A stretch of DNA of 64,000 nucleotides from Candidatus Eiseniibacteriota bacterium (lineage in GTDB: Bacteria > Orphanbacterota > Orphanbacteria > Orphanbacterales > Orphanbacteraceae): positions 347,503 through 411,502 of the forward strand of contig JAJCZU010000008.1 of NCBI GenBank assembly GCA_029262235.1. Reading direction: 5' to 3'. A program made the position numbers and the translations under genes. Positions 2,238-35,245 of the stretch are shown here, piece by piece. The first letter of the stretch is position 1. The number at the start of each line of letters is the position of its first letter. The notes under the pieces are model-generated. The model was not told the DNA's origin. It ran no database searches and saw only the letters and a list, made by a program, of their open reading frames with translations.

Positions 2238-2981
2238 CTAATTCTCCACGAGTTCTTTGTAGGCATCGCGCAGCATCTGAAAATCGTTCCACACCGGTCG
2301 TTTGTACGACTCGTTCCGCAGGCAGGCGGAAGGGTGATACGTGCAGATGAGCCTCTTGCCGTGCCAGTCGAACCATCGCCCGCGCAGCCGCCCGATCCCC
2401 TCGGTTTTGTCGAGGAGCGTTTGAGCGGCGAAGCGGCCGAGGGCACAAATGAGTTGCGGCTGGATCGCGTCGATCTGCTGCAGCAGAAACGGATTGCATG
2501 TGGTGACTTCGTCAGGCTGCGGATCGCGGTTCCCGGGCGGACGGCACTTCACGATATTCGTGATGTAAACGTCCTCCCGCCTGATGTCCGCAGCGGCGAA
2601 GATCTTGTCGAGAAGCTGGCCCGCACGCCCGACGAACGGTTCGCCTATGCGATCCTCGTCCGCGCCCGGCGCCTCGCCGATGAACATGAGCTTCGCGTTC
2701 GGATTGCCGACGCCGAACACGAGGTTCGTGCGCTGCCCGTGAAGGCCGCAGCGCGTGCACTCCCCGAGATCTTCTCGCACCGTCGTGAGGTTGCCTCCCG
2801 CCGGTGCGGCCGGCCGGGTCGCCGCCGGCGCCGGCGGCGCCGATACTGCACTCACGGGCTTCGTCGCGATCCCCTTGCCGATCCCCCGGAAGCCGGGCAG
2901 AATCGGATCCGGATAACGGAACTCCTTCTGCTGTCTCAGAAAGCGATAGACTTCGTTCCGAATGTCCTCGGACCGGCTCAT
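2238..2981 (-). CDS. Family 4-type uracil-DNA glycosylase (4Fe-4S)
   Basis: Removes uracil from DNA to start base excision repair. The core begins near residue 70 and carries the GEAPGADED motif (residues 102-110) and HPSAC (216-220). Four cysteines at 75, 78, 146 and 162 match the CxxC ... C ... C pattern that binds the iron-sulfur cluster in family 4 enzymes. The first 70 residues form an extension with an Ala/Pro-rich linker, seen in family members related to phage SPO1 DNA polymerase N-termini. GGAG six bases before ATG supports the start. It sits between coaBC and dnaB with short gaps, so it is probably co-transcribed. Confidence 0.92.
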
Positions 2982-2990
2982 GCGAAGCTC

Positions 2991-4226
2991 CTACTTTCCG
3001 GCGAGCAGACGATTGACTTGATCGATGATTTTTCGGGCGATTTCTGATTTGGCAGCAAGCGGAATCTCTTCGCGCGTTCCGTTCGCGCCGAGGATCACGG
3101 CTTCTGTCGCATCCTGATCGATGCCGCCGCCGTTCACGTGCGGGCGATTGACGACGATCAGGTCGAGCCCCTTTTTCTCGAGCTTGGCACGGCCGTGCTT
3201 CTCGATGTCGTCCGTTTCGAGCGCAAACCCTACGAGCACTTCGATCCCGTTCCGTTTCGATCCGATCGAAGCGAGAATGTCCTCGGTGGGTTCGAGATCG
3301 AGCGTGATCGGGCCCTTGCGTTTCTGCTTCGATTCGCTCGTTTTGCTCGGGCGGAAGTCGCCGACTGCTGCCGCCATGATCACGATGTCACTCTTCGCTG
3401 CTTCCCTGCGCACGGCTTCGGCCATTGCAGAAACCGAACGCGCTTCGATCGCACGAATTCCTTCGGGCAGCGCAACGGACAGGGCACCGTGCACCATCGT
3501 CACTTCGGCGCCGCGACGGGCCGCCTCGCGCGCGATCGCGCACCCCATCCTGCCCGACGATCGGTTCGTCAGTATACGAACAGGGTCAATCGCCTCCTCC
3601 GTCCGGCCCGCCGTGACGAGTACGCGCTTTCCCGCAAGGTCGCCCCCTTCGCGGCCGAGCTGCTCGATCACGAACGCAACCTGCGTTTCCGGTTCCGCGA
3701 CACGCCCCACGCCTTCGTAGCCGCAGGCCAGATCGCCCGACTCGGGCGGCACCACGAGAACGCCGTCCGCGCGAAGCGTGCGCAGGTTCCGCTGCGTCGA
3801 CTCGTGGAGCCACATGAACTTGTTCATCGCCGGGGCGACGGCAACCGGACAGGTCGCCGCAAGATAAGAAGTCGTAAGAAGGTCGTCAGCAATGCCCGCG
3901 GCCATCTTCGCCATCACGTTCGCCGTGGCCGGCGTCACGAGAAAGAAGTCGGCACTCTGGGCCATGTCGATATGGATCGGCCTGGTCTCGGGACCAAACG
4001 CTTCGGCGGGTCTGAAATCGCGGTCGCTTTCCCAGAGGTCGGCGGCCACGCGCCTCCCCGTGATCGCCTCGAAAAGCTCAGGGCGAACCATCTGCGTGGC
4101 GGATCGGGTCATGATCGCCTGACAGTTCGCCCCTTCCGTCGTCAGCTGACGGATCACTTCGAGGGACTTGTAGATGGCCACGCCACCCGTGATCCCGAGG
4201 AGGATGTTCTTCCCCTTAATCCGCAC
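2991..4226 (-). CDS. coaBC: Bifunctional CoaBC
   Basis: Makes 4'-phosphopantetheine from phosphopantothenate and cysteine in coenzyme A synthesis, with decarboxylase (CoaC) and ligase (CoaB) activities in one chain. The N-terminal flavoprotein half has ITGGVAIYKSLE, the PAMNKFMW motif and the SGDLACGYEG loop with the catalytic Cys. The ligase half begins at VLVTAGRTEE and has the NRSSGRMG nucleotide-binding stretch. I chose GTG at 4226, with AGGAG six bases upstream and an 11-base overlap with rpoZ, over the in-frame ATG at 4256, which would overlap rpoZ by 41 bases and add a basic tail of ten residues not typical of the family. Confidence 0.95.
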   Translation of the reverse strand: MRIKGKNILLGITGGVAIYKSLEVIRQLTTEGANCQAIMTRSATQMVRPELFEAITGRRVAADLWESDRDFRPAEAFGPETRPIHIDMAQSADFFLVTPATANVMAKMAAGIADDLLTTSYLAATCPVAVAPAMNKFMWLHESTQRNLRTLRADGVLVVPPESGDLACGYEGVGRVAEPETQVAFVIEQLGREGGDLAGKRVLVTAGRTEEAIDPVRILTNRSSGRMGCAIAREAARRGAEVTMVHGALSVALPEGIRAIEARSVSAMAEAVRREAAKSDIVIMAAAVGDFRPSKTSESKQKRKGPITLDLEPTEDILASIGSKRNGIEVLVGFALETDDIEKHGRAKLEKKGLDLIVVNRPHVNGGGIDQDATEAVILGANGTREEIPLAAKSEIARKIIDQVNRLLAGK

Positions 4227-30973: not shown

Positions 30974-32146
30974 ATGGAACGGGACTGGCCGGACAACGTC
31001 GTACAGATCGCGCGGATGGTGGACGCTTCGCGCGGCGGCTACTTTCGAGCTGCTTACAACCTCGCGCGCGAATTCCGGAAGCGCGGCGTAGGCGTCGTGA
31101 ACCGCACACTCTACGGCGCCCCCCCGAATACCGGCGACGACCTGGGCGTATTCCGCCCCATGCCGTTCTGGGCCGCGATCACATCACGCGTATCTGCCAA
31201 GCACCTGAACCTGCTGCTCGAGATTCCCGTATTCTCGCTCGCCGCGACCTGGACCGCTCTTCGATCGCGAGACGTCGTCCTGGTTCACAACGACTCGTTC
31301 GCCGGCGACGTATTCCGCTCGCCCAGCTGCCACCGCGAAGCCGTCGACTCGAAAAAGCGAAAGGGGGAGCGCCGCTGGTGGTTCTTTCCCCTTCACCCGT
31401 TCTGGCTCTTTCGCGAGTGGTTCGTCTTCGGTCGCGGAAGGCGTCCGTTTCTCGTGGCCGTGTCGCGCGCCTGCGGGGAGGAACATCGTCGGCACTACGG
31501 ACTCGATCCCGCGCGGATCGAATGGATTCCGAACGGGGTCGATCGGACTCTCTTTCGACCGGCACCCGACCGGAACGCCCTTCGAAAAGAACTCGGGATC
31601 CCCACGGATGCGTTTGTGCTGCTTTTCGTCGGGAACGATTTCAACAACAAAGGCGTTTCGGTTCTGATTGACGGCGTGGCCGAAGCGAAGAACAGCGAAA
31701 AAGTCTGGGCAGCCATTGTCGGCGACGACGTGCGCGCACCGTACGAACGACGTGCCGCGCAGCGTGGAGTGGCGGATCGCGTGAAGTTCTTCGGACGACG
31801 GAACGACGCGGAGAAATTTTACGCCGCAAGCGACGCGTTTGTTTTGCTGTCGCACTACGAAGCGTTCGGCAACGTGGCGATGGAGTCGCTTGCCGCCGGC
31901 ACACCCGTCATTTCGACGAAGGTCGGCGGCATGCTTGACTATATCGAGCACGAAAAGAACGGCCTGTTCGTCGACCGTGAAGGCGAAAGCGTGGCGCGTG
32001 CGATCGACCGCGTCGTCGAAGACGTAGCGCTCCTGACAACCATGCGCACGAACGCCCGGCCATCGACCGAGGCTTACGACTGGGGCGCGATCGCCGAGCG
32101 ATACCTCGACCTGCTCGGGCGCGTCGCCAGGGAGAAACGCGCATGA
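30974..32146 (+). CDS. GT4-type glycosyltransferase
   Basis: 390 residues of a GT-B retaining glycosyltransferase: N-terminal MVDASRGGYFRAAYNLAREF, IEWIPNGVDRTLFRP, LLFVGNDFNNKGVSVLI, VKFFGRRNDAEKFYAASD, and the donor-site block LLSHYEAFGNVAMESLAAGTP. It overlaps the flippase gene by four bases (ATGA). A basic, poorly conserved loop lies near residues 115-160. Together with the flippase it suggests assembly and export of a lipid-linked saccharide. Confidence 0.9.
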   Translation: MERDWPDNVVQIARMVDASRGGYFRAAYNLAREFRKRGVGVVNRTLYGAPPNTGDDLGVFRPMPFWAAITSRVSAKHLNLLLEIPVFSLAATWTALRSRDVVLVHNDSFAGDVFRSPSCHREAVDSKKRKGERRWWFFPLHPFWLFREWFVFGRGRRPFLVAVSRACGEEHRRHYGLDPARIEWIPNGVDRTLFRPAPDRNALRKELGIPTDAFVLLFVGNDFNNKGVSVLIDGVAEAKNSEKVWAAIVGDDVRAPYERRAAQRGVADRVKFFGRRNDAEKFYAASDAFVLLSHYEAFGNVAMESLAAGTPVISTKVGGMLDYIEHEKNGLFVDREGESVARAIDRVVEDVALLTTMRTNARPSTEAYDWGAIAERYLDLLGRVAREKRA

Positions 32147-33585
32147 CCGGCGGCATGAAACGCGGCTTCCTGATGCTCTCCGGTGGCGGCGCCGCCAGCA
32201 AAGTACTCGGGGCCGTTCGCGAAATCGCGCTCGCACAGTTCTTCGGCACAGGCGCGGTCGCCGACGCTCTCCGCGCCGCCCTTTCGCTTACCCTGAATCC
32301 GATCCACCTCTTTACGCGCGTGATCCAGGCGGGTTTCATTCCGCACTACGCGCAGGAGAAAGACGGCTCAGCCGAACGAGCCGCGCTCTATCGCGCCGTG
32401 AGCCTGCTGTTCCTGGGGATCTCGTTGCTCATCGCCGCGACGCTCGTTCTCTTCGCGGAACCCGTCGTGCGCCTCGTGCTCCCCGGGTTCTCGGGCGAAC
32501 GCTTCACGCTGACGACACGGATGCTCCGTGTGCTCGCCGCCGGCGTCCCCTTCTATATGTATACGACCATTCTCGGGGCACTCGGCGCGGCGCAGTCGAA
32601 CTACGTCATCCCGGCCATGCGGCCCGCTGTGCAGAACGTGGCCCTGATCGTTTTCGTGGTCTGGGCCGCCCTTTCGGGCCGGCCGATCGTGGCCGCGTGG
32701 GGCTTTTCCGGCGCGTACTGCGCGCTTGCGATCGCGGCAACCATCTACTTTCGCGGGCGCGGCCTCTTTCCGAAAGCGCAGGCACGCGGCGCTGACTTCA
32801 AGAACCCGTTCTGGATCAGCGTGCGTCCGATTCTGCTGCTTTCGTTCGTGCTCCAAACAAACATTCTCGCCGAACGCGCCGTCACTTCGCTGCTCGGCGA
32901 CGGCAGCATGGCTGGACTCGACTACGCGCGATTCCTGAGCGAAACCGCGCACTTTCTGATCGCCATGCCGCTCGGCCTCATGAGCCTCTCGCTGTTTGCG
33001 CGCATGGACGAACGCACGGCCCGCGATGAAACCGATCGCCTGCTGGCTCTACTGCTGGCGCTCTTTCTCGCGCTCGCCTCCCTGCTGTTCTGGCGCGGCG
33101 ATCTCATCGTGCGCATCATTTTCTTTCGCGGCGCATTCGACGCAACATCCCTTGCCGTTACTACCAGCGCCCTTCGTGGATTCGCCGCCGGCCTCACCTT
33201 CTTCAGCGCGAGCTACCTGCTCCAGCGCATCCTGCAGGCACGGCTCGCGCATGGCCTCGTTCTTCGCGCAGAGATCCTGGGCGCCGCCGTGAACATTGCG
33301 TTCAACTTCCTCTTCTATCGAAGCCTCGGTCTCATGGTGATCGGTCTCGGTGCCGGGGCGGGCGCTCTTGTTTCGCTCGCCCACTATGTGCCTGCGAGTC
33401 GCTCACACTTCCGGCAAACGCGGCGCAGCCTGCCGATCGCACTTGCGCTCACAGCGGTCTACGCCTTCGGCGTCGCATGGCTTCTCCCTCGATGGGGCGC
33501 CCCGGAGTGGACGGGAGTGGCGCTGTTCGTGGTCGTGTGGGGGCCCTATCTGCTGAGCGCGCTCCGATCATTTCAAGCGAAGTAA
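32143..33585 (+). CDS. MurJ/MviN-family lipid flippase
   Basis: 480 residues with about 14 hydrophobic spans and the MviN pattern SKVLGAVREIALAQFFG near the N-terminus, YARFLSETAHFLIAMPLGL, and an Arg-rich cytoplasmic face. MurJ flips lipid II across the inner membrane; homologues flip other undecaprenyl-linked sugars. Because it is coupled to a glycosyltransferase gene and not to cell-wall genes, it may serve a polysaccharide. I therefore leave the symbol blank. Its 3' end runs into the structured repeats at 33.6-34.0 kb. Confidence 0.88.
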   Translation: MTGGMKRGFLMLSGGGAASKVLGAVREIALAQFFGTGAVADALRAALSLTLNPIHLFTRVIQAGFIPHYAQEKDGSAERAALYRAVSLLFLGISLLIAATLVLFAEPVVRLVLPGFSGERFTLTTRMLRVLAAGVPFYMYTTILGALGAAQSNYVIPAMRPAVQNVALIVFVVWAALSGRPIVAAWGFSGAYCALAIAATIYFRGRGLFPKAQARGADFKNPFWISVRPILLLSFVLQTNILAERAVTSLLGDGSMAGLDYARFLSETAHFLIAMPLGLMSLSLFARMDERTARDETDRLLALLLALFLALASLLFWRGDLIVRIIFFRGAFDATSLAVTTSALRGFAAGLTFFSASYLLQRILQARLAHGLVLRAEILGAAVNIAFNFLFYRSLGLMVIGLGAGAGALVSLAHYVPASRSHFRQTRRSLPIALALTAVYAFGVAWLLPRWGAPEWTGVALFVVVWGPYLLSALRSFQAK

Positions 33586-33600
33586 GTGATGAAGTGAACG

Positions 33601-33644
33601 AAGTGGCTCGGCTCAGAATCAATTCTCTCGACCGCTCGACCTGG
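33601..33644 (+). repeat. Partial A-type structured repeat (A0)
   Basis: Carries the left arm GAATCAATTCTC and the start of the core (CTCGACCGCTCG), matching A1 and A2, then diverges. The right arm is missing, so this copy cannot form the full hairpin. Confidence 0.8.
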
Positions 33645-33654
33645 GGATGGTGAA

Positions 33655-33799
33655 GAAAAGAAGTCGCTCGGCTCGGAATCAATTCTCTCGACCGCTCGGC
33701 CTGGCCTAATGGCCAAGTAAAGAGGCCTCGCGGATCCGAGAACTGATTCCGCGCCGAGGCTTTCGTTTCCTTTTTAGGGCGGGAAGAGAAGAAAAGAAG
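33655..33799 (+). repeat. A-type structured repeat, copy A1
   Basis: About 145 bases, nearly identical to A2 at a period of 173. The arm GAATCAATTCTC (33676-33687) pairs with GAGAACTGATTC (33738-33749). Inside are a second stem CCGC..GGCC/GGCC..GCGG with a 2x2 mismatch and an apical hairpin TGGCC-TAAT-GGCCA (33702-33715). The 3' part can fold instead into a terminator-like hairpin followed by a T-rich run. Confidence 0.9.
33725..33775 (+). terminator. Terminator-like hairpin within A1
   Basis: GCCTCG (33725-33730) and the following CGGA pair with TCCG and CGAGGC (ending 33760) around a 13-base loop with a 3-base bulge, followed by TTTCGTTTCCTTTTT (33761-33775). It would end transcripts coming from the flippase operon. 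Confidence 0.45.
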
Positions 33800-33827
33800 G
33801 CGGAAGGCGGAAGGGAGAGAGAAGAAA

Positions 33828-33972
33828 GAAAAGAAGGCGCTCGCCTCAGAATCAATTCTCTCGACCGCTCGGCCTGGCCAAATGGCCAAGTAAAAAGGCC
33901 TCGCGGATCCGAGAACTGATTCCGCGCCGAGGCTTTCGTTTCCTTTTTAGGGCGGGAAGAGAAGAAAAGAAG
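33828..33972 (+). repeat. A-type structured repeat, copy A2
   Basis: Second full A copy. Arms GAATCAATTCTC (33849-33860) and GAGAACTGATTC (33911-33922), apical hairpin TGGCC-AAAT-GGCCA (33875-33888; the loop differs from A1 but the stem does not), and the same purine-rich end GGGAAGAGAAGAAAAGAAG. Confidence 0.9.
33898..33948 (+). terminator. Terminator-like hairpin within A2
   Basis: Same hairpin as in A1: GCCTCG (33898-33903) with CGAGGC (33928-33933), then a T-rich run 33934-33948. A tandem second terminator for the plus-strand transcript. Confidence 0.45.
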
Positions 33973-34088
33973 AGAGCGCGTGCGATTGAAGTCGCCGCTC
34001 CTGTTCTTCTCTTGATTCTTCACGTCGCGCGGCGGGAATGCCAGGCGCCACGGAAAAGAAACCATCGTAGTGCTTCGTGCGGCGCAGA

Positions 34089-34193
34089 TGGGTTCATTCC
34101 GGGGCGCGATGGGCTTCCCGGATCCCGCGAGGCTCCGTACTTGGCCATTTGGCCAGCCGAGCGGGTCGAGGGAGGCTCAAGCGCCCCGGACCA
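34089..34193 (-). repeat. B-type structured repeat, copy B1
   Basis: 105 bases. Read on the minus strand it has the same core as the A repeats (CTCGACC, CTCGGC, TGGCC-AAAT-GGCCA, AAGTA, CCTCGCGGG, ATCC) but different arms: TCCGGGGCGC (34098-34107) is a perfect 10-base inverted repeat of GCGCCCCGGA (34181-34190). Confidence 0.92.
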
Positions 34194-34222
34194 AACTCTC
34201 TTCCCTTACATTGCACTAAGCG

Positions 34223-34327
34223 TGGGTTCATTCCGGGACGCGATGGGCTTCCCGGATCCCGCGAGGCTCCGTACTTGGCCATTTGGCCAGCCGAGCGGGT
34301 CGAGGGAGGCTCAAGCGCCCCGGACCA
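34223..34327 (-). repeat. B-type structured repeat, copy B2
   Basis: Matches B1 over all 105 bases except one change in the left outer arm (TCCGGGACGC, 34232-34241), which leaves a single A/C mismatch with its partner at 34315-34324. Separated from B1 by 29 unique bases. Confidence 0.92.
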
Positions 34328-34358
34328 GGTTCCTTCTTTCGTTCGCATGACAGCAAAG

Positions 34359-34463
34359 ATGGATCATTCCGGGGCGCGATGGGCTTCCCGGATCCCGCGA
34401 GGCTCCGTACTTGGCCATTTGGCCAGCCGAGCGGGTCGAGGGAAGTCCGAGCGCCCCGGACCA
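34359..34463 (-). repeat. B-type structured repeat, copy B3
   Basis: Third 105-base copy, 31 bases after B2 and only eight bases from the SDR stop codon. Outer arms 34368-34377 and 34451-34460 are perfect complements. A few changes beside the right arm (GGAAGTCC in place of GGAGGCTC) improve pairing with GGGAAGCCC-type bases on the other side. Confidence 0.92.
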
Positions 34464-34471
34464 GAAAATCG

Positions 34472-35245
34472 TTACGCGCGTGCTCCTGCGGTGATGTTGA
34501 TCGCCGTGCCGGTGATGCCGGTGGCTTCGGTCACGAGGAACAGAGCGAGTGAGGCGACCTCTTCGGTCGTTACCGCGCGACGGAGCATGCTCTTATCTGC
34601 AAGGGCGTTCCGGATTTCATCCACGTTCTGGCCTGTCAGCTTGCCGGTCTTGATCATCGAATCGTATAGAAGTTTCGTTTCGACGAACGCGGGGCAGATG
34701 GCGTTCACATGAATGCCGTCGCGCGCGACTTCGGATGCGAGGGAGGTCGTGAACGCGATCAGGCCGGCTTTCGACGCGGCGTAGGCGCTGTTCAGCGGGC
34801 CGGGGGAATTCGCCATGCGCGACGCGATGTTCACGATGCGCCCGTTCTTGGAAGCGGTGAGGGCGGGGAGCGCGGAGCGGCAGAACCGATACGCGCCCAC
34901 AAGGTTTACGTTGATGTCGTAGAGCCATTCGGTCGGGTCCGAGAGGGCAACGGTGGATATGTACTGGGTCCCGGCGCCGTTCACTACGATGTCGATGCGG
35001 CCGAATGTTTCGAGGGTGTCCTTCACGCAGGCGTCGATTTCGGCCTGGCTCGTCACGTCGACGGGAATGGCCAGAACGCCGCTGGAAATCGGACCGAGTT
35101 CATCAGCCAGATCGGCGATCTGCTTTTCCGTTCGTGAACAGAGAACGAGGCGCGCCCCTTCCTCTGCAAAACGCCGTGCAATTCCGGCGCCGATTCCGCG
35201 CCCGGCGCCCGTGATGATCGCAACCTGGTTGTCGAGTATTCCCAC
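34472..35245 (-). CDS. SDR-family oxidoreductase
   Basis: About 257 residues of a classical short-chain dehydrogenase: cofactor loop TGAGRGIG, NGAG in strand 4, catalytic Ser and YAASK (Tyr-Lys), and C-terminal TGITGTAINITAGARA. Start is GTG overlapping the aminotransferase stop by one base (TAGTG); the longer open frame upstream lies antisense-free inside the aminotransferase gene and is not conserved. Coupled to an aminotransferase, so it may act on an amino- or keto-acid-derived intermediate; substrate unknown. The fold and the C-terminal length are typical of FabG-like enzymes. Confidence 0.9.
   Translation of the reverse strand: MGILDNQVAIITGAGRGIGAGIARRFAEEGARLVLCSRTEKQIADLADELGPISSGVLAIPVDVTSQAEIDACVKDTLETFGRIDIVVNGAGTQYISTVALSDPTEWLYDINVNLVGAYRFCRSALPALTASKNGRIVNIASRMANSPGPLNSAYAASKAGLIAFTTSLASEVARDGIHVNAICPAFVETKLLYDSMIKTGKLTGQNVDEIRNALADKSMLRRAVTTEEVASLALFLVTEATGITGTAINITAGARA

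Follow-up and report, generated by a model that had tools for sequence, protein, structure and literature searches.

A dispersed family of probable DNA hairpin repeats with a common tip and variable paired stems

The locus and its hairpin block

The window, i.e., the whole stretch of 64,000 nucleotides that was analysed, comes from a genome of 4.47 Mb that is 95.5% complete (G000). We refer to the sole other genome of its genus as G001, and C-numbers designate contigs. A murJ/mviN-like gene (32143..33585, plus strand), putatively named from its translation and delimited with the list of open reading frames and a codon-based gene call, has its stop codon 5' of a block of repeats. A short-chain dehydrogenase-like gene (34472..35245, minus strand), also putatively named from its translation, converges on this block.

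The block starts with A0 (about 33613..33644, plus strand), a truncated copy that corresponds to the 5' half of the A hairpin, ends at CCTGG and was recognised in direct repeat family D3. Two complete hairpins follow on the same strand, A1 (33655..33757, with a conserved core at about 33683-33742) and A2 (33828..33930), matched by the R2 model at 33670-33755 and 33843-33928, respectively. Downstream of A1, a T-rich stretch and then a polypurine tract (33758..33827, plus strand) make up the polar flank that is common to the family, as judged from the sequence and from the mean flank composition over 80 copies. A T-rich stretch and a purine tract also follow A2, and lead into the spacer that separates the A group from the B group facing it (33931..34088, delimited by alignment with C7:123950-124150). 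The B group lies on the minus strand and includes B1 (34089..34193), B2 (34223..34327) and B3 (34359..34463), with R2 model matches at 34102-34187, 34236-34321 and 34372-34457. The two A repeats (33653-33799 and 33826-33972) are 97% identical and the three B repeats 93-99% identical. The original prediction had placed these two A and three B repeats correctly, and had overlooked only the sixth, truncated A copy at ~33613-33644. Each of the five full copies was predicted to fold into a single long hairpin, with z-scores from -2.4 to -3.6. The pairing claimed for the outer arms proved exact: 11 of 12 positions pair in the A arms (GAATCAATTCTC/GAGAACTGATTC) and 10 of 10 in the B arms (TCCGGGGCGC/GCGCCCCGGA).

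A second copy of the A-A-B-B-B block lies between two co-directional genes at C7:123600-124540. It includes A0 and the A/B spacer, which aligns with C7:123950-124150, and the block was therefore duplicated as a unit. At the orthologous locus of G001, the 3' end of the murJ-like gene aligns up to position 3745 of G001:C350, the two convergent flanking genes are just 2 bp apart and the whole block is missing; the stretch without a match spans 33590..34481 of the window. Around the hairpins there are long polypurine tracts (GAAGAG/GGCGGAAGG; 33776-33827 and 33948-33975 in the window, 2380-2900 in L043), whose length differs among copies.

Family size, distribution and pairing

The prediction of a dispersed family of structured repeats was confirmed by covariance models, which located it at 82 places in G000. 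A model built from the five window copies matched 72 places in the 4.47 Mb of this genome (E up to 10), and a second one, built from 59 copies (alignment A3), gave 91 matches. The list of 82 places consists of these 91 matches minus opposite-strand duplicates and the weakest ones, plus one place from the first list. Plain BLAST searches gave 35 and 38 matches. When 60 genomes were searched with a stricter filter, we found 71 matches in G000 and four in G001. The latter number is a lower bound because the G001 assembly is fragmented in 830 contigs. The other 58 genomes, of which five belong to the same taxonomic family and 53 are further ones, had no copies. 

A scan for the core word in genomes of 84,980 species returned six places, with model scores at noise level; this is near the chance expectation, which we estimated ourselves from 19 specified bases and three gap lengths. 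One viral contig carries the core word, also with a model score at noise level. In line with the original prediction, which knew no named family that fits, there was no match in Rfam at gathering thresholds, and the matches at relaxed thresholds were far under the cut-off of each family and look like chance. Two scans of stretches from five related genomes for comparable hairpin families were uninformative, the gapless one being too strict and the minimum-energy one not specific. To judge from the model and core-word searches, the repeat family appears restricted to one bacterial genus lineage.

The core described for both subtypes is present in the window copies, but the TC/TC mismatch and the AAAT loop attributed to it are not constant genome-wide. 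Many copies are paired at the position of the mismatch (CTCG/CGAG), variation also affects the loop and an 8-nt purine bulge, and one subfamily lacks this bulge. In the 59 aligned copies, standard pairs occupy 78% of the cells of a 32-pair structure. Cells differing on both sides numbered 244; shuffles gave 104, and slid versions no more than 145. The stems of the genome-wide copies therefore covary above both controls, in line with the original prediction. The core stems contain very few G-U pairs (14 of 1039 paired cells), and in helix 2 each of the 46 changed cells differs on both sides, with no one-sided change. A strand-symmetric comparison of G-T and A-C mismatches was confounded by conserved mismatches, and we used only the lack of a G-U excess. 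Since matches to a structure model may be biased towards paired arms, we rescored the arms in 25 copies found through their core by plain BLAST. Their outer-arm complementarity averaged 8.7 within copies and 2.4 when unrelated arms were re-paired, a value that none of 20,000 resamples reached. Arm complementarity thus far exceeds chance in copies found by sequence only, and the hairpin is real.

Genomic context and orthologous sites

We used a simple codon-based gene caller of our own to establish the gene context of the copies. Among the 53 regions that hold copies, 22 are convergent, 21 co-directional and 7 divergent, and 3 are at contig ends; for comparison, 6 of the 51 adjacent gene pairs in the window are convergent. 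Copies lie inside called genes in two regions, perhaps because of a calling error. Some copies of the element are solitary, others form tandem runs, and still others make up two groups that face each other, as in the A...B block. Of the adjacent copies with opposite orientation, 16 pairs are facing ('+-') and one points outwards ('-+'; P = 0.0003), and outside convergent regions facing pairs prevail 8 to 0. Relative to genes there is no sense or antisense preference: among the single copies of co-directional regions, eight are sense and six antisense. The mean flank is polar: it is purine-rich 5' of the 5' arm, has 42% purine over ~20 nt past the 3' arm and 62-74% over the next ~50 nt. The same tandem array of the element is found at the end of C3 (631713-631960) and at the start of C6 (67-311) in G000, which indicates an assembly break there; the two contigs may be neighbours.

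Beyond the window locus, the element is missing at five further sites of G001 for which both flanks are on one contig (the orthologues of C4:948988, C4:502944, C4:802479, C2:49840 and C2:258025). Two of the empty sites hold a second hairpin family instead (G001 C400 and C570). The extra DNA at C4:948988, relative to the empty G001 site, is a foldback with variable arms and a polypurine tail. As it includes the arms, these do not come from the target; no clear target-site duplication was found at this site. The two sister species have come to differ in the presence of the element since a recent split, although deletion in G001 could account for some of the empty sites. Three copies are retained at orthologous sites. 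The copy at C4:79384 differs from its G001 orthologue by one substitution besides an insertion, whereas the neighbouring sequence differs by ~9%, which hints at constraint. The insertion, in one stem arm of the G001 copy (G001:C595, L119 449-529), is a 26-nt stretch with a perfect mini-hairpin (GTGCAGCC-TCC-GGCTGCAC), and the rest is almost identical to G000. One orthologous copy shows a G-C to A-T change on both sides of the stem. Two other places differ between the genomes. In L054 (C3:73059-74426) a predicted 783-bp gene is flanked by elements, and the orthologous place of G001 measures 341 bp instead of 1367 bp; the gene, which seems to be missing there, may have been gained or lost jointly with both elements. 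Immediately outside the copy at C3:367100, at the stop codon (L077 ~2960-3010), 19 nt (AACTCGTCGTCGAATTCCC) are duplicated in tandem; the version in G001 is shorter.

The placement of the copies bears on the idea that they are bidirectional terminators, or hairpins protecting the 3' ends of mRNAs, that multiplied and were retained for that use. The frequency of convergent regions speaks for it, and copies often start 15-50 nt past a stop codon. Windows of 8 nt with at least five T after the arm were counted in 28 and 38 of 80 cases on the two strands, versus 7 of 80 in a control stretch, and the occupation of two G001 orthologous sites by another hairpin family fits as well. However, copies also lie upstream of genes, around half of the regions being co-directional or divergent, and the B copies of the window lack a T tract. 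A terminator scan of the region had no clear excess (3 found, 1.6 expected), and neither the conserved core of 55-60 nt nor the facing pairs would be necessary for termination. We therefore regard this use as an unlikely reason for the family's existence. A terminator or mRNA-end role may exist all the same and may explain the retention near gene ends. Any use by the cell would be secondary, candidate roles being a bidirectional transcription stop, mRNA end protection, and relief of supercoiling between convergent genes.

We give still less credit to a structured non-coding or cis-regulatory RNA, i.e., a transcribed hairpin that would bind a ligand or a protein via its apical loop and the 8-nt purine bulge (AAGTACGGA). 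Conservation of primary sequence in loop and bulge would suit such an RNA, as would the long stable fold on one strand, for which the model scores well over the opposite strand of the same copy (e.g., 116 vs 28 bits), and the one orthologous copy that is nearly unchanged. Yet the copies lie upstream, downstream and antisense of genes in balanced orientation (the 8 vs 6 mentioned above), G-U pairs are almost absent, related genera and several orthologous sites lack the element, and one subfamily does without the bulge. The near absence of G-U pairs, the lack of an orientation preference and the empty orthologous sites make a DNA repeat fit better than a conserved RNA.

Exchange of modules and affinities with known repeats

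Comparisons between copies suggest how the stems came to differ. At C4:948988, a core that matches the B core in every letter is joined to unrelated arms (AGAACCCGTT/AACGGGTTCT). Three other copies have a common core of 54 nt and mutually unrelated arms: C3:366661 (GAGCCCGGATCGG/CCGATCCGGGCTC), C7:169935 (GCGCTTGACCGG/CCGGTCTGCGCG) and C2:258025 (GGGCGTGTGGCCGG/CCGGCCATCACGCCC). Such identical cores on unrelated yet paired arms are 54-60 nt long. Conversely, C2:20572, C2:342433 and C2:345207 have the same arms, and the cores of the latter two are only 65-70% alike to that of C2:20572. To judge from these sequences, the stems differ through block exchange of whole modules, which also fits the 46 to 0 ratio of two-sided to one-sided changes and the near absence of G-U pairs; gradual compensation through G-U does not readily do so. 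The original prediction had taken the differences between A and B stems for two independent compensations due to selection on pairing, a reading left unsupported by identical cores with unrelated arms and same arms with divergent cores. In a separate attempt, we considered whether the stems could be guides or copies of target sites, and rejected this because the arms, when searched against the retrieved DNA, mostly hit incomplete copies of the element and short GC-rich words.

Compensatory point evolution, in which single arm substitutions are each rescued by their partner, is accordingly very improbable. It could draw on the strong covariation above shuffles and slides and on the two-sided G-C to A-T change in one orthologous copy, but many of the arm differences already contradict it, since identical cores carry unrelated paired arms, identical arms carry divergent cores, and helix 2 has no one-sided changes. 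Covariation is the usual proof of RNA structure. Here, strong covariation arises largely from the exchange of palindromic modules, and a covariation test alone would have pointed to a regulatory RNA.

We consider the element probably a lineage-specific, non-coding DNA hairpin repeat of ~100-145 bp that is mobile or copied within intergenic space. An enzyme acting in trans might handle the hairpin while it is single-stranded, e.g., in lagging-strand DNA, or when it forms a cruciform. Cores and arms would be swapped between hairpins by recombination, gene conversion or template switching, and this swapping would keep arms complementary without point-wise compensation. More tentatively, and with rather low odds in our view, the family could represent a new class of small single-stranded DNA hairpin element. 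An enzyme that recognises its apical core would move it, and core exchange or copying templated by the hairpin would renew both arms at once, making each copy a well-paired but different palindrome.

We searched for mobilising enzymes with the profiles PF01797, PF00078 and TIGR02249. The Y1 (RAYT) transposase (PF01797) had no match in G000 or G001, while five control genomes matched. The reverse transcriptase (PF00078) was not found in the profile search. No integron integrase (TIGR02249) scored over the cut-off, and partial matches to tyrosine recombinases were of the sort seen in 14 of 14 control genomes.

Several known classes resemble the element in part. It is small, non-coding and foldback, and varies in presence between sister genomes, like MITEs. 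Subfamilies of MITEs have common ends. In the element, by contrast, the ends (the arms) vary and the centre is common, there is no clear target-site duplication, and no parent transposase was found with the three profiles. The likeness to REP/REPIN/BIME repeats is broader: these are also dispersed intergenic palindromes (here, 82 places in 53 regions) with facing doublets and tandem clusters, restricted to lineages, often located by 3' ends or between convergent genes, and with subfamilies that have alternative complementary stem residues. Yet REP stems have 5-13 bp and a GTAG or CGTC end tag, often with a RAYT gene (PMC3116915, PMC3733652), and G-T pairs are frequent in them (PMC3733652). Our family has a stem of ~30-40 pairs in a hairpin of ~100 nt, variable ends without a conserved foot tag, a conserved tip, rare G-U/G-T pairs and no Y1 transposase. 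Long stem-loop repeats, including ERIC and YPAL, were listed in 92 families (PMC2267715). As described there, ERIC and YPAL are palindromes of ~115-170 bp with tens to hundreds of lineage-restricted intergenic copies per genome, and the element is likewise an intergenic non-coding repeat in the ~100-170 bp range with a common predicted fold. The parts of that account available to us do not describe arm exchange around a fixed core, or facing pairs, for these families (PMC2267715). We would class the element as a new family of stem-loop repeats whose modular construction is unusual and which works like REP/REPIN/BIME and ERIC/YPAL repeats. Recombination sites of the attC type, from an unusual integron or cassette array, are the least credible origin of all: attC sites are also long, imperfect hairpins with a conserved, unpaired asymmetric stretch and form tandem arrays, but no cassettes separate the element's sites, its tip is conserved rather than its ends, and no integron integrase passed the cut-off.

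The unusual trait of the family is the same hairpin tip on quite different, always self-matching stems. If arm-for-arm exchange is confirmed, it would offer a natural system to study how bacteria without a RAYT transposase copy and repair their palindromes, and how these spread. The family is also a marker of a little-known lineage.

Other repeats accompany the element. The second dispersed hairpin family (GCGGGTGGCGCGCCGGACGGGGACCCC...GGGGT...GCGCGACAGGACCCGC) had 28 matches in G000 and 27 in G001, and five further genomes of the taxonomic family gave no match. In G000 it is found at C4:6264-6336, C3:366543-366615, C6:463-730 and ~25 more places, and it also forms arrays (G001:C193). A third repeat of ~190 bp (CGCAATCCCTGGCCGACCGCCTTTG...GGTTGGTCTTGCTTCGCCGCGCACAG) occurs in the same intergenic regions as the element, at C2:257508-257900 (L113, twice in tandem), from C4:911987 on (L066) and from C6:83981 on (L062).
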